This document shows positions 27,813-31,636 of a DNA stretch of 42,463 bases, piece by piece; position 1 is the stretch's first letter, and every line of letters begins with the position of its first letter. Below the pieces are notes generated by a model. That model made no database searches. It was not told the origin of the DNA and worked only from the letters and a program-made list of their open reading frames with translations. Position numbers and translations under genes: made by a program. The stretch lies in assembly GCA_002171475.2 (NCBI GenBank), contig NHEX02000005.1:1-42463 (forward strand). The letters run 5' to 3'. Source of the DNA: Flavobacteriales bacterium TMED96 (lineage in GTDB: Bacteria; Bacteroidota; Bacteroidia; Flavobacteriales; Flavobacteriaceae).

Positions 27813-28562
27813 TTAGGATTTAAGTGTTGATGTCATATATTCGCTATTCATTCTAGCTATATTTTTTAAAGAAATTCCCTTTGGACACTCAACTTCACAT
27901 GCACCAGTGTTTGTACAATTTCCAAACCCCTCGTCATCCATTTGCTTGACCATATTTAAAACTCTTTGTTTTGATTCTACCTTACCTTGTGGTAGTAGTG
28001 CATATTGAGAAACTTTAGCAGATACAAATAACATAGCGGAAGCGTTTTTACAACTAGCGACACAAGCACCGCAGCCTATGCAAGTAGCGGCATCAAATGA
28101 TTTGTCTGCATCATTTTTTTCGATAGGAATAGAATTTGCATCTTGGGTATTACCGGAAGTATTAACACTAACAAAGCCTCCTGCTTGTTGAATCCTATCA
28201 AATGCTGAACGGTCAACTACCAGGTCTTTTATTACTGGAAAAGCATTAGCCCGAAATGGTTCAACAACAATGGTATCACCATCTTTGAACTTTCGCATAT
28301 GCAACTGACATGTTGTTACAAGTCGATCAGGCCCATGAGCCTGACCATTTATAAACATGGAACACATACCACATATACCTTCTCTACAGTCATGATCAAA
28401 GGCAACTGGATCTTCTTTGCCTTCGGATATAATTTTACTGTTTAGAACATCTATCATTTCTAGAAATGACATATCAGGAGAAACGTTTGACATCTTATAT
28501 GTTTTCATTTGCCCCTTAGAGTTACTATTTCGTTGTCGCCAAATTTTTAATGTTAAATTCAT
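27813..28562 (-). CDS. sdhB: Succinate dehydrogenase iron-sulfur subunit
   Basis: This 249-residue subunit carries electrons from the flavin in SdhA to the membrane quinone site. The [2Fe-2S] ligands are in [15 protein letters not shown]. The [4Fe-4S] and [3Fe-4S] ligands are in [17 protein letters not shown] and [15 protein letters not shown] longer linker between the domains (about residues 125-140) is normal for the Bacteroidetes type B enzymes. The ATG at 28562 follows the sdhA stop by a single base, so the two are co-translated. Confidence 0.95.
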
Positions 28563-28563
28563 T

Positions 28564-30822
28564 TTATTTATATGATCTTGTTTTTACCTCAATTTCTTCG
28601 TATTCTAATTTTTCTTTGTGAAGAACAGATTTTCTGGGTTCCTTATTAAATTCCCATGCTGAAACATATTTATAATTTTTATCGTTTCGCAACGCCTCCC
28701 CTTCTTTTGTTTGGTGTTCCTCCCTAAAATGTCCTCCGCACGACTCTTCTCTTTCAAGTGCATCTTTTGCAAATAATTCACCGAGTTCAAGAAAGTCAGA
28801 TACTCTAGTAGCTTTTGACAATTCTTCATTGAATTCATTCAATTTTCCAGGTATTTTTACATTCTTATGGAAATCTTCTCTAAGATTTTTTATTTCATTT
28901 ATTGCTTCCTTAAGTTCATTTTTGTTTCGAGACATTCCGCATTTATTCCGCATGATTTTGCCAAGTTTTTTGTGATAAAAGTCGACCGGATTTTTGCCTT
29001 TTTTATTTATTAAATTTTCTAAAGATTCTCTAACGTATTTTTCTGCCTTCTCAAATTCAGGTCTATCAACTGAAATTGGACCAGTACGAATATCATCAGA
29101 TAAATAATCTCCTATGGTGTAAGGTAGGACAAAATAACCGTCCGCTAGTCCCTGCATTAATGCTGAAGCGCCAAGACGATTGGCTCCATGGTCAGAAAAA
29201 TTAGCTTCGCCTATTGCATAACATCCAGGTATTGTTGTCATTAAATTATAATCAACCCAAACACCACCCATTGTATAATGTACTGCAGGATAAATCATCA
29301 TTGGGGTTTCATATGGATTTTGGTCTACAATCTTTTCATACATCTGAAACAAATTCCCGTATTTTGCTTTAACAACCTGTTTCCCTAGATTCATTACTAA
29401 TGAAGCATCGTTTTCATCAAGTCCCAAAACTAATGCTCTCTCTTTTCCATATCTTTCAATCGAAGAACTAAAATCTAAATAAACTGCTTCTCCTGTCTTG
29501 TTTACACCATATCCCGCGTCGCAACGTTCTTTAGCTGCTCTTGAAGCAACGTCTCTTGGGACTAGATTTCCAAATGCCGGATATCTTCTTTCTAGATAAT
29601 AATCCCGGTCCTTTTCCGCGATTCGAGTTGGACTTAATTTACCCTCTCTAATCATCTTAACATCATCTAATTTTTTTGGTACCCATATCCGTCCATCGTT
29701 TCTTAGTGATTCGGACATCAGAGTTAACTTAGATTGATGATCTCCTGAAACTGGGATACAGGTTGGGTGAATTTGAGTAAAGCAAGGGTTAGCAAAAAGA
29801 GCACCTCTTTTATGTATTTTCCATGAAGCAGAAACATTACTACCCATCGCGTTAGTAGACAAGTAAAAAACATTTCCATAACCACCAGATGCTATTACAA
29901 CAGCATGCGAAGAATGTCTGTTAATTTCGCCTGTAACCAAATTTCTTGTTATAATTCCTCTTGCTTTGCCGTCAATAACAACGATATCCATCATTTCATG
30001 TCTATTATACATTTTAATTTTACCTCTACCGATTTGTCTATTCATAGCCGAATAGGCACCTAATAAAAGTTGTTGACCGGTTTGACCTTTGGCATAAAAG
30101 GTCCTAGATACAAGTACTCCTCCAAAAGATCTATTATCTAAAAGACCTCCATAATCCCTAGCAAATGGGACTCCTTGAGCAACACATTGGTCAATTATAT
30201 TTCCTGAAACCTCTGCTAGTCTGTATACGTTAGCCTCCCTAGATCTATAGTCTCCTCCTTTGATAGTATCATAAAAAAGTCTATGGATTGAATCGCCATC
30301 TCCCTGATAATTTTTGGCTGCGTTTATACCACCCTGAGCAGCTATAGAGTGAGCTCTTCTAGGGGAATCTTGAAAACAAAAAGTTTTGACATTATACCCA
30401 AGTTCTGCTAAAGTAGCAGAAGCAGAAGCTCCAGCTAAGCCAGTACCAACAACAATGACATCGATTTGACGTTTGTTCGCAGGACTTACTAAATTTATTT
30501 TACTTTTGTGATTAATCCACTTTTCAGAAAGATTTCCCTTTGGTATTTTGGGATCAATTATTGAACCATTATCATTAGTTTTTTTGTAGAGATTTTTTTC
30601 CCACTCTTTAGCTAATAATTTTGCTTTTTTAATGTGTAATTCATTTTGATTTTTTTCATCTTTTGTTTTAGGGTCGGTAATTAAATGAAATGGTAAGGTT
30701 TTAATAAGCCTTTTTGCCTTACGCTTTCCATTTACAATTTCATATCCAGAAAAGAAATTTAACCTAATTGATGAGGTTCCATTTGAATTTTGTCTGAATC
30801 TTATTTTTACTGTTTTTTTCAA
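28564..30822 (-). CDS. sdhA: Succinate dehydrogenase flavoprotein subunit with an extra N-terminal recombinase arm-like domain
   Basis: Residues from about 87 to 752 form a complete flavoprotein of type B succinate dehydrogenase: FAD motif VVGTGLAGA at 124-132, the covalent FAD histidine in [13 protein letters not shown], and catalytic-domain segments [13 protein letters not shown] and GGVWVD. Before it lie about 85 residues that related SdhA proteins lack. They read [20 protein letters not shown]..., then [11 protein letters not shown], then [20 protein letters not shown], a pattern strongly like the arm-type DNA-binding domain at the N-terminus of Bacteroidetes tyrosine recombinases (short beta sheet, then a helix with EKxxNxExxxxA). 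No ATG, GTG or TTG lies in frame between the TTG at 30822 and the FAD motif, so the fused form is the only obvious product. It lies 98 bp after sdhC with its own promoter-like box. Confidence 0.92.
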
Positions 30823-30835
30823 AATAAATTTTTAT

Positions 30836-30865
30836 TTAAGGTACACAAATTGTTCAAGGTTCAAA
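30836..30865 (-). promoter_or_regulatory. Candidate internal promoter for sdhA-sdhB (TTTG-N18-TACCTTAA)
   Basis: On the minus strand TTTG (30865-30862) and TACCTTAA (30843-30836, one mismatch to TAnnTTTG) are separated by 18 nt. Transcription would start near 30830, about 8 nt before the TTG start of sdhA. That fits the fused start and would let sdhAB be expressed apart from sdhC. The -33 box lies inside the palindrome at 30859-30875. Confidence 0.4.
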
Positions 30866-30875
30866 AAATTTGAAC
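30852..30875. promoter_or_regulatory. Palindromic operator-like site in the sdhC-sdhA gap
   Basis: GTTCAAAAAATTTGAAC at 30859-30875 has perfect 7-bp arms (GTTCAAA and TTTGAAC) around AAA. It is preceded directly by GTTCAAG at 30852-30858, giving two direct half sites and one inverted. It overlaps the -33 region of the candidate sdhA promoter, so it could bind a dimeric regulator. The regulator is not identifiable from this window. Confidence 0.45.
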
Positions 30876-30920
30876 ATATGTAATTTTTACTATATGGATA
30901 AATTGAAAAGATTCATTTGA

Positions 30921-31583
30921 TCATATTGAGGTTGTAAAATGATATATTGCTATAAAAATAAATCCTAAAGGAACACCTATAGCAAAAATTTTAGTCAAGC
31001 CTTTTATTGAAAGTATATATTTATTATTCACTCCGACAGATTGAAAAGAAGAATTGAAGCCATGTAAAAGATGTAAACCTAGAAAAAGAAAAGAGAAGGA
31101 GTAAATAGCAACTCTAATTGGACTCTCAAATTTGTGTTTCATTTCGTGGAAATATCTATCAGGATCTAATGGGTTAAATTGTACATATTTATAATTCATT
31201 TCAGGTACCCAAAAATCATAAAAATGAAGAAATAAAAAAAGCAAAACAACAATTCCAGATAGAATCATATTTCTAGACACCCAAGATGAATTTGAACTTC
31301 CCTTGACGAAATAATATTTAACGGTGCGTGAGCTACGATTTTGATAATCTAATATCATTCCCATCACAAAATGAAAGACCACACCAAAAATTAAAATTGG
31401 TTGTAAAATAAATTGAACTATTGGATTATTCCCCATAAAATGAGAAATACTATTAAAAATCTTTTCGGAAAAAACGGAAGTTAAATTAATCGAGAAATGT
31501 TGAAACAGAAAAAGAATCAAAAAAAGACCAGAAATAGCCATCGCGTACTTTTTTAGTAAAGAAGACCGAAGTATCTTGAACAT
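30921..31583 (-). CDS. sdhC: Succinate dehydrogenase cytochrome b subunit (type B, single anchor)
   Basis: This 220-residue membrane protein has five hydrophobic helices, the single-polypeptide di-heme anchor of type B succinate:quinone reductases. Candidate heme ligands are the histidines in LFLFQHFSINL, GVVFHFVMGM, LFLFLHFYDFW and LGLHLLHGFNSS. It anchors SdhAB on the cytoplasmic face and exchanges electrons with menaquinone. It is the first gene of the sdhCAB set; two copies of an 11-bp repeat lie 25-53 bp upstream of its ATG. Confidence 0.92.
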   Translation of the reverse strand: MFKILRSSLLKKYAMAISGLFLILFLFQHFSINLTSVFSEKIFNSISHFMGNNPIVQFILQPILIFGVVFHFVMGMILDYQNRSSRTVKYYFVKGSSNSSWVSRNMILSGIVVLLFLFLHFYDFWVPEMNYKYVQFNPLDPDRYFHEMKHKFESPIRVAIYSFSFLFLGLHLLHGFNSSFQSVGVNNKYILSIKGLTKIFAIGVPLGFIFIAIYHFTTSI

Positions 31584-31607
31584 GTTTTAATATATCTAAC
31601 TATCAGC

Positions 31608-31636
31608 TAAGGTACATATTTTTTTTAAGGTACATA
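31608..31636. repeat. Tandem 11-bp repeat TAAGGTACATA upstream of sdhC
   Basis: TAAGGTACATA occurs at 31608-31618 and again at 31626-31636, an 18-bp period. A 9-bp version (TAAGGTACA) lies at 30837-30845, just before sdhA. On the sdh coding strand each contains TACCTTA, near the -7 consensus TAnnTTTG. They are either tandem promoter boxes or sites for a regulator shared by sdhC and sdhAB. Confidence 0.5.

Follow-up and report, generated by a model that had tools for sequence, protein, structure and literature searches.

A recombinase-type domain at the N-terminus of flavobacterial SdhA and its possible role in autoregulation of sdhCAB

SdhA with an in-frame N-terminal extension

What does a DNA-binding-like domain do at the head of a respiratory flavoprotein? 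The question is raised by the sdhA gene (28564..30822, minus strand) of the window, the whole 42,463-bp stretch of DNA analysed here. The gene has 752 codons and a TTG start, and is adjoined by sdhC (30921..31583, minus strand), encoding the cytochrome b558-family membrane subunit (TIGR02046), and sdhB (27813..28562, minus strand), encoding the iron-sulfur subunit (NF005746). The flavoprotein body, residues 87-752, is a full-length family match, aligning with positions 4-641 of the 641-position NCBIfam SdhA subfamily model NF005749 at 1163 bits (cut-off 866). Because this alignment begins at residue 87, residues 1-86 (30565..30822, minus strand) are extra; the protein is like SdhA/FrdA of NF005749 over its body and differs in the 86-residue DNA-binding-like extension. 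A first-pass annotation of this DNA had counted about 85 additional residues that run into the flavoprotein without a stop, which agrees with this result and with a reading frame that is uninterrupted across all 752 codons. The distance between the sdhC stop and the LVSPANKR anchor of SdhA is 68-153 bp at ordinary loci (124 loci, 120 distinct) and 433-558 bp at extended loci in the same comparison.

In the window gene, codon 1 is the sole in-frame ATG, GTG or TTG within the first 130 codons, so the enzyme would be made only with the extension unless an unusual start codon is used. Other members of the genus have a few such codons further in, at codons 30, 43, 111 and 122. Six other genomes of the genus were searched: five contain the fusion, and one, 65% complete, gave no sdhA match. 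Comparison of the sdhA 5' ends thus places the extension in every genus member with an sdhA match, six in total, and the TTG start is kept in each of them. The predicted sheet of the extension (codons 2-51) is under purifying selection, with dN/dS of 0-0.094 in 14 of the 15 pairs of these genomes and 0.31, at a dS of 0.03, in the remaining pair. For codons 52-86 dN/dS is 0.09-0.45 (one of 15 pairs undefined), and for the SdhA body 0.025-0.055 over the 15 pairs. Two explanations offered by the first-pass annotation fit poorly here. An integrase that was inserted and then decayed is at odds with a fusion in six of six genus members and a sheet under purifying selection, and simple read-through is at odds with a selected fusion shared by these six and a window gene that has no other conventional start. 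There is good support for another of its suggestions, that sdhA captured the 5' end of an integrase. The window's own assembly (6.5% contamination listed) holds a second SdhA fragment, 68% identical (G000:C63:2-361), which is probably a foreign contig.

The extension can be identified with confidence, from sequence profiles, as a tyrosine-recombinase arm-binding domain, here called type A. A Pfam scan of residues 1-88 of the window SdhA found no family at E<=10, and PF17293 was not passed directly by the window extension or by the other type-A and type-B extensions scanned (0 families). Profile A1, built from seven of the nine type-A extensions, scored 119 (probability 99.55%) in hhalign against 11 recombinase arms, a partly circular comparison in that eight of the arms had been found with A1 itself and three by single-sequence search; the reversed alignment scored 11.8 and the highest of 50 column shuffles 16.8. 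When 60 genomes were searched with the extension, its highest-ranking matches outside the genus fell on the N-terminal ends of tyrosine recombinases, with E values of 1e-5 for L007, 1.5e-5 for L008 and 3e-5 for L009, which is frameshifted. Among these, L007 passes Phage_integrase, Phage_int_SAM_5 and PF17293. The arm-like character read from the N-terminus in the first-pass annotation is borne out in this way by the profile comparison, even though the Pfam scan is empty.

In the family sample, A1 has matches at E<=0.001 in 26 of 397 genomes, comprising six SdhA fusions and a remainder with E values from 1e-19 to 6e-4. The majority of the proteins matched by A1 and by the type-B profile have Phage_integrase or its SAM-like domain, and many also have PF17293. 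Recombinase Pfam domains were found in the scanned matches L226-L232, L234, L235, L238, L239, L241, L244 and L245; in L244 these are the SAM-like and arm domains only, and in L230 Phage_integrase scores below its cut-off. The fragment L225 has no Pfam match. L233 and L236 duplicate the L007 and L008 loci, and L237, L240, L242 and L243 are short frames.

AlphaFold2, run without an alignment, predicts strands at residues 4-11, 16-24, 27-30, 33-36 and 39-48 and a helix at 54-76 in the type-A extension (mean pLDDT 76). This predicted order can be reconciled with PMC8138268, in which arm-binding domains have three strands and a single helix. Residues 1-51 contain 12 K/R and 2 D/E. Fold searches of the PDB and of viral structures named no arm domain, an absence that is no proof, so that the identification comes from the profile comparison with recombinase arms and the fold is a prediction. 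Sequence profiles of the PDB returned one match for type A, at E 1.3 and taken as chance, and none for type B. A PF17293 search of the window's own genome found nothing, nor does that genome hold a further copy of the extension. Scans of viral contigs with types A and B and two whole recombinases gave no confirmed match. In phage records, tblastn found two weak matches for type A (E 0.04), none for type B and 16 distant records for a recombinase.

The SdhA extension is thus similar to the recombinase arm domain (PF17293; PMC8138268) in profile, N-terminal position, predicted three-strand-plus-helix order and nearby direct repeats. It differs in heading SdhA: core-binding and catalytic recombinase domains are absent after the arm, and only flavoprotein domains are found there.

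Different extensions at one position

Extended SdhA is not confined to the window's genus. Among the matches listed, there are at least 29 extended sdhA loci (nine type A, ten type B, one type C and nine type D). At least four types of extension can be distinguished, of which A, B and C are recombinase-arm domains and D is an excisionase-like HTH_17 domain. Beyond the window's genus, type A heads SdhA in G211 and G383, which belong to one genus, and in G317 of another; in the family sample, a type-A query matches six of 397 genomes at E<=1e-21, and the window's genus accounts for three of the six. Type B occurs at the SdhA N-terminus of G010, G418, G084, G359, G177 and G095, and of G469 from another family of the order. 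It is also present in the named records L077 (AG-333-B03), L095 (AG-461-G08) and L083 (MED-G125, cut by the contig end), presumably of marine origin to judge from names such as MED-G125. Type C is represented by L061 (AG-435-G19), whose extension matches PF17293 at E 1.1e-9 (39.1 bits, cut-off 22.6). The nine type-D loci come from eight genomes of another family of the order, in which 12 genomes were searched and 11 had a match; the single member scanned matches HTH_17 at E 9.6e-15.

Profile A2 consists of nine type-B rows, without the cut L083 and the rearranged G164. Against seven recombinase arms it scored 137 in hhalign, compared with at most 16.1 in 50 column shuffles and 21.5 for the reversed alignment, which lies above the shuffles and far below 137. 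Cross-scores between the types are low, at 10 and 12 for A1 with the type-B profile and the type-B arms and at 9 for A2 with the type-A arms, so types A and B, the two covered by this comparison, have no detectable relationship. Among the A2 matches, L253, L254, L255, L259 and L260 pass Phage_integrase, and L258 has the SAM-like and arm domains. L257, at a contig end, falls just short of the arm cut-off. L256 matches no Pfam family.

A quick tree of the SdhA body with 131 rows (29 extended and 102 not, some of them near-copies) requires at least ten changes in the presence of an extension. Seven of these changes are forced by well-supported branches, with gains and losses indistinguishable. 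The 12 type-A and type-B fusions of the family sample are all found in genomes of at most 2.1 Mb, and most of the 397 genomes are larger.

Several further loci were noted during this survey. G429, whose assembly is listed with 5% contamination, has two differing type-D sdhA loci (L199 and L206, with frames of 736 and 760 aa), which come from either a duplication or a bin that mixes two strains. In G164, a type-B extension (L252, G164:C13:59155-59436) runs into a stop, sdhC-like fragments that are out of frame come after it, and the same repeats as at other type-B loci lie upstream; this locus is either rearranged or misassembled, and stands outside the count of 29. The long open frames of G424, G524, G552, G475, G456 and G385 proved to be ordinary starts with an open frame upstream. 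By eye G530 has no extension, and in G167 the sdhA frame starts normally and encodes 667 aa, despite a listed open frame of 894.

Repeats at two places in the sdh operon

The 98-bp spacer between sdhC and sdhA in the window (30823..30920, minus strand) contains two repeats. The operator-like repeat TGTACCTTAA is located at 30836..30845 (minus strand), and a second, weaker copy, TGAACCTTGA, lies 18 bp upstream of it at 30854..30863 (minus strand). At the place of TGAACCTTGA, four of the five other genus members have TGCACCTTGA or TGCACCCTGA, and the fifth (L026) has nothing within one mismatch. The distance from sdhC to the extension is 59-228 bp in extended loci, L207 not included, and 54 bp in type C.

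Spacer repeats were also sought de novo as the commonest 9-mer with one mismatch allowed, and 40 dinucleotide-shuffled sets repeated this discovery step; these shuffles alone redo the discovery, the other repeat tests being made on the data in which the repeats were recognised. The commonest 9-mer is GTGTACCTT for type A (16 copies in nine spacers, of which one genus supplies six; no more than 12 in shuffled sets), GTGTTACAA for type B (22 copies in eight spacers; at most 16) and TAGACAAAA for type D (19 copies in nine spacers; at most 12). Type-A copies all point one way, type-B copies nearly all do, and the short type-D copies lie on both strands. The period of the type-A pairs is 18 bp in five of six genus members, the sixth having a single copy, and that of the type-B pairs is 11-12 bp, three loci having two pairs 57-58 bp apart. 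At least two copies are present in seven of the nine type-A spacers (reached in 0-1 of 500 shuffles) and one copy in the other two (24 and 26 of 500). The corresponding figures for type B are seven of eight spacers (0-9 of 500) and one (44 of 500). The type-C spacer contains GGGGCACTTTTTGGGGTACAAA, together with a TATCTTTG box right before the ATG. By comparison, in the 400 bp before the anchor of 124 ordinary loci, two or more motifs of types A, B and D (the D word being GGACAAAA) occur in one, zero and one locus. The sequence of the spacer repeat follows the type of the extension, and the repeats are nearly absent at ordinary loci.

The spacers may also contain promoters. TAnnTTTG, the flavobacterial sigma-A -7 box according to PMC9723704, is found in 17 of 28 spacer stretches, compared with a mean of 5.6 and a maximum of 13 in 200 shuffled versions. 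It is present in none of the six spacers of the window's genus, so a promoter there is unproven.

A second set of repeats is located upstream of sdhC. In the window, the operator-like repeat TGTACCTTAG at 31607..31616 (minus strand), which contains an exact TGTACCTTA, and a further TGTACCTTAA at 31625..31634 (minus strand) lie 18 bp apart. A type-A pair with the 18-bp period is present upstream of sdhC in six of six genus members, its flanks having diverged by eye, and in G383 one copy is accompanied, at a distance of 18 bp, by a second with two mismatches. The window contains three exact TGTACCTTA, all at the sdh locus (one in the spacer, two upstream of sdhC), with 0.26 expected per window and none of 100 shuffles reaching three. 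With a looser form of the type-A pattern there is no enrichment across the window (six found, nine expected). In the regions upstream of 84 ordinary sdhC genes, a pair of type-A copies is never seen, a single type-A copy is seen in five and a single exact type-B copy in two. Exact type-B copies precede sdhC in G010 (L262; two, inverted) and in L077 and L095 (one each), and G095 (L266) has two inverted copies, placed by eye, if sdhC starts at a TTG; this type-B comparison leaves out G469, and also G418, whose stretch ends inside sdhC. Repeats upstream of sdhC were not found in G211 and G317 (type A), in G084, G359 and G177 (type B) or, by eye, in type D. The set upstream of sdhC is the strongest single point for autoregulation.

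Across whole genomes, a strict type-A pattern has 1-4 matches per genome (0-2 in the backward control) and a strict type-B pair four (none in the backward control). Ten other exact type-A sites and a site in G267 all fall within reading frames and were set aside. In G084, an exact type-B pair (L261, G084:C25, 1174-1193) has a flavodoxin gene on one side and, on the other, the gene for a second SdhA/FrdA-like flavoprotein, whose best NCBIfam scores are to TfrA and sdhA_frdA-type models, below their cut-offs. This pair is a possible target in trans.

Autoregulation and its alternatives

Taking these observations together, we consider it probable, with roughly three chances in four, that SdhA autoregulates sdhCAB in the manner of PutA, through a DNA-binding domain captured from a recombinase, probably along with its binding sites. 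The target of a recombinase arm domain is a set of short repeats, and some elements have these repeats immediately in front of the recombinase gene. With sites so placed, in-frame fusion of a recombinase gene to sdhA could have captured domain and sites jointly as a ready-made feedback circuit. The captured domain would then have been kept by purifying selection, with repeats of the same sequence and period also before sdhC. We infer DNA binding by the extension, with the repeats as its target, an effect of repression rather than activation, and the free subunit as the signal. SdhA outside the membrane complex would bind the repeat pairs and repress sdhCAB, and uptake of SdhA by SdhB and SdhC would end the repression, so that synthesis would follow assembly or demand.

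Components of such a circuit have precedents. PutA (PMC5293562) is a flavoenzyme with a small N-terminal DNA-binding domain that alternates between autogenous repressor and membrane-associated enzyme. Extended SdhA resembles trifunctional PutA in being a flavoenzyme with a small N-terminal domain of DNA-binding type and a membrane-associated catabolic dehydrogenase, for which self-regulation is proposed here. Unlike PutA, which uses an RHH domain and represses put, SdhA is a subunit of a respiratory complex, its DNA binding is putative, and its domains are of several kinds, derived from tyrosine recombinases or excisionase-like proteins. Measured against enzymes of the PutA kind, SdhA has an intact enzyme body, a fused domain and operator-like repeats, all known here from sequence alone. 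In ICEMlSymR7A (PMC11963761), IntS lowers expression from its own promoter by about 25% in an attP region with five arm-type motifs. RdfS, with a domain closest to HTH group 17, likewise acts as repressor at the promoter of its own gene. There too a recombinase- or excisionase-type domain acts on its own gene, as proposed for SdhA, but the regulators are proteins of a mobile element and not a metabolic enzyme.

The same locus could be read as a relic: sdhA would have picked up an integrase 5' end with its arm sites by accident and lost its native start, and the extension would survive as a passive N-terminal cap that serves nothing but translation and folding. The window gene indeed has no native conventional start, capture alone could leave arm sites just upstream, the helix and linker evolve faster than the sheet, and the distribution is patchy, with at least seven forced label changes on the tree. 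Capture upstream of sdhA would not place repeats before sdhC, across a gene of about 660 bp, as seen in six of six window-genus members and four type-B loci, and passive caps would not be expected to be DNA-binding domains in every case, HTH_17 among them. We regard this explanation as unlikely.

The repeats might instead be operators of a separate transcription factor, the extension serving assembly, RNA binding, or contact with the membrane or a partner. Such a division of labour gains some room from the link between extension and repeats, which is deduced rather than directly proven; it seems very improbable in view of repeats whose sequence changes with the type of extension from genome to genome and which hardly occur at ordinary loci, of a recombinase with a type-B-like arm (L253) that has type-B-like repeats, and of the 12 K/R to 2 D/E in the first 51 residues. 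Least credible is a membrane tether, in which the domain would bind its own locus and hold the sdh genes at the membrane during insertion of the enzyme, with no control of transcription. Succinate dehydrogenase is a membrane complex and the sites lie within its operon, as such a tether would have it, but sites close upstream of the first gene fit control of transcription better, and we give the idea hardly any weight.

Autoregulation by SdhA would mean that an enzyme of the TCA cycle and respiratory chain carries its own transcription-factor domain. A broader proposal, which we hold to be evenly balanced, is that small-genome flavobacteria repeatedly made SdhA a regulator through captured domains and sites, so that it would serve as a respiratory-state sensor for sdhCAB, and in some species for further flavoprotein genes, replacing a dedicated regulator. 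The several kinds of domain gained at one position amount to a natural replicate experiment. They suggest a route by which selfish DNA supplies regulation, a recombinase with adjacent sites yielding a full feedback loop by one fusion. Control of respiration in these little-cultured bacteria becomes testable by short DNA probes. DNA-binding autoregulatory enzymes are known as a kind; the enzyme and the source of its domain are new, and a search of open-licence PubMed Central papers, at the level of listings, found no paper on SdhA with a DNA-binding domain.

Recombinase relatives of the extensions

The joint capture of domain and sites has one good case, in type B. L253 is the recombinase with the arm closest to type B (E 3.8e-32; the next is at 5.5e-19), and it alone among 24 recombinases has two type-B motifs within 200 bp upstream (3 of 2000 shuffles), in a pair reading GTGTTCCAAATTGTGTTCTAA. 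As a de novo upstream repeat this pair has p 0.18, and a generic test for upstream repeats gave p<0.05 at eight of 25 recombinase loci (seven of 23 distinct); given these two results, co-capture beyond this case is a conjecture. Other tandem repeats are found upstream of type-B-like recombinases, GGGGTACTATATGGGGTACTA in L254 and TTGTTCCAAATCTTGTTCCAA in L260, as though arms and their sites had changed in step in this group. A tRNA gene (Asp, Met or Phe) lies close upstream of all seven recombinases L253-L257, L259 and L260.

HTH_17 genes lie directly before the recombinases L008, L011 and L012, so that a recombination module is a likely source of type D as well. The recombinase L007 lies directly behind the 3' end of mnmE (TrmE_N, MnmE_helical), and by eye L008, L009, L011 and L012 have the same reading-frame end, NIFANFCIGK, before the recombinase. 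The 3' end of mnmE is likely the shared integration site of these recombinases.
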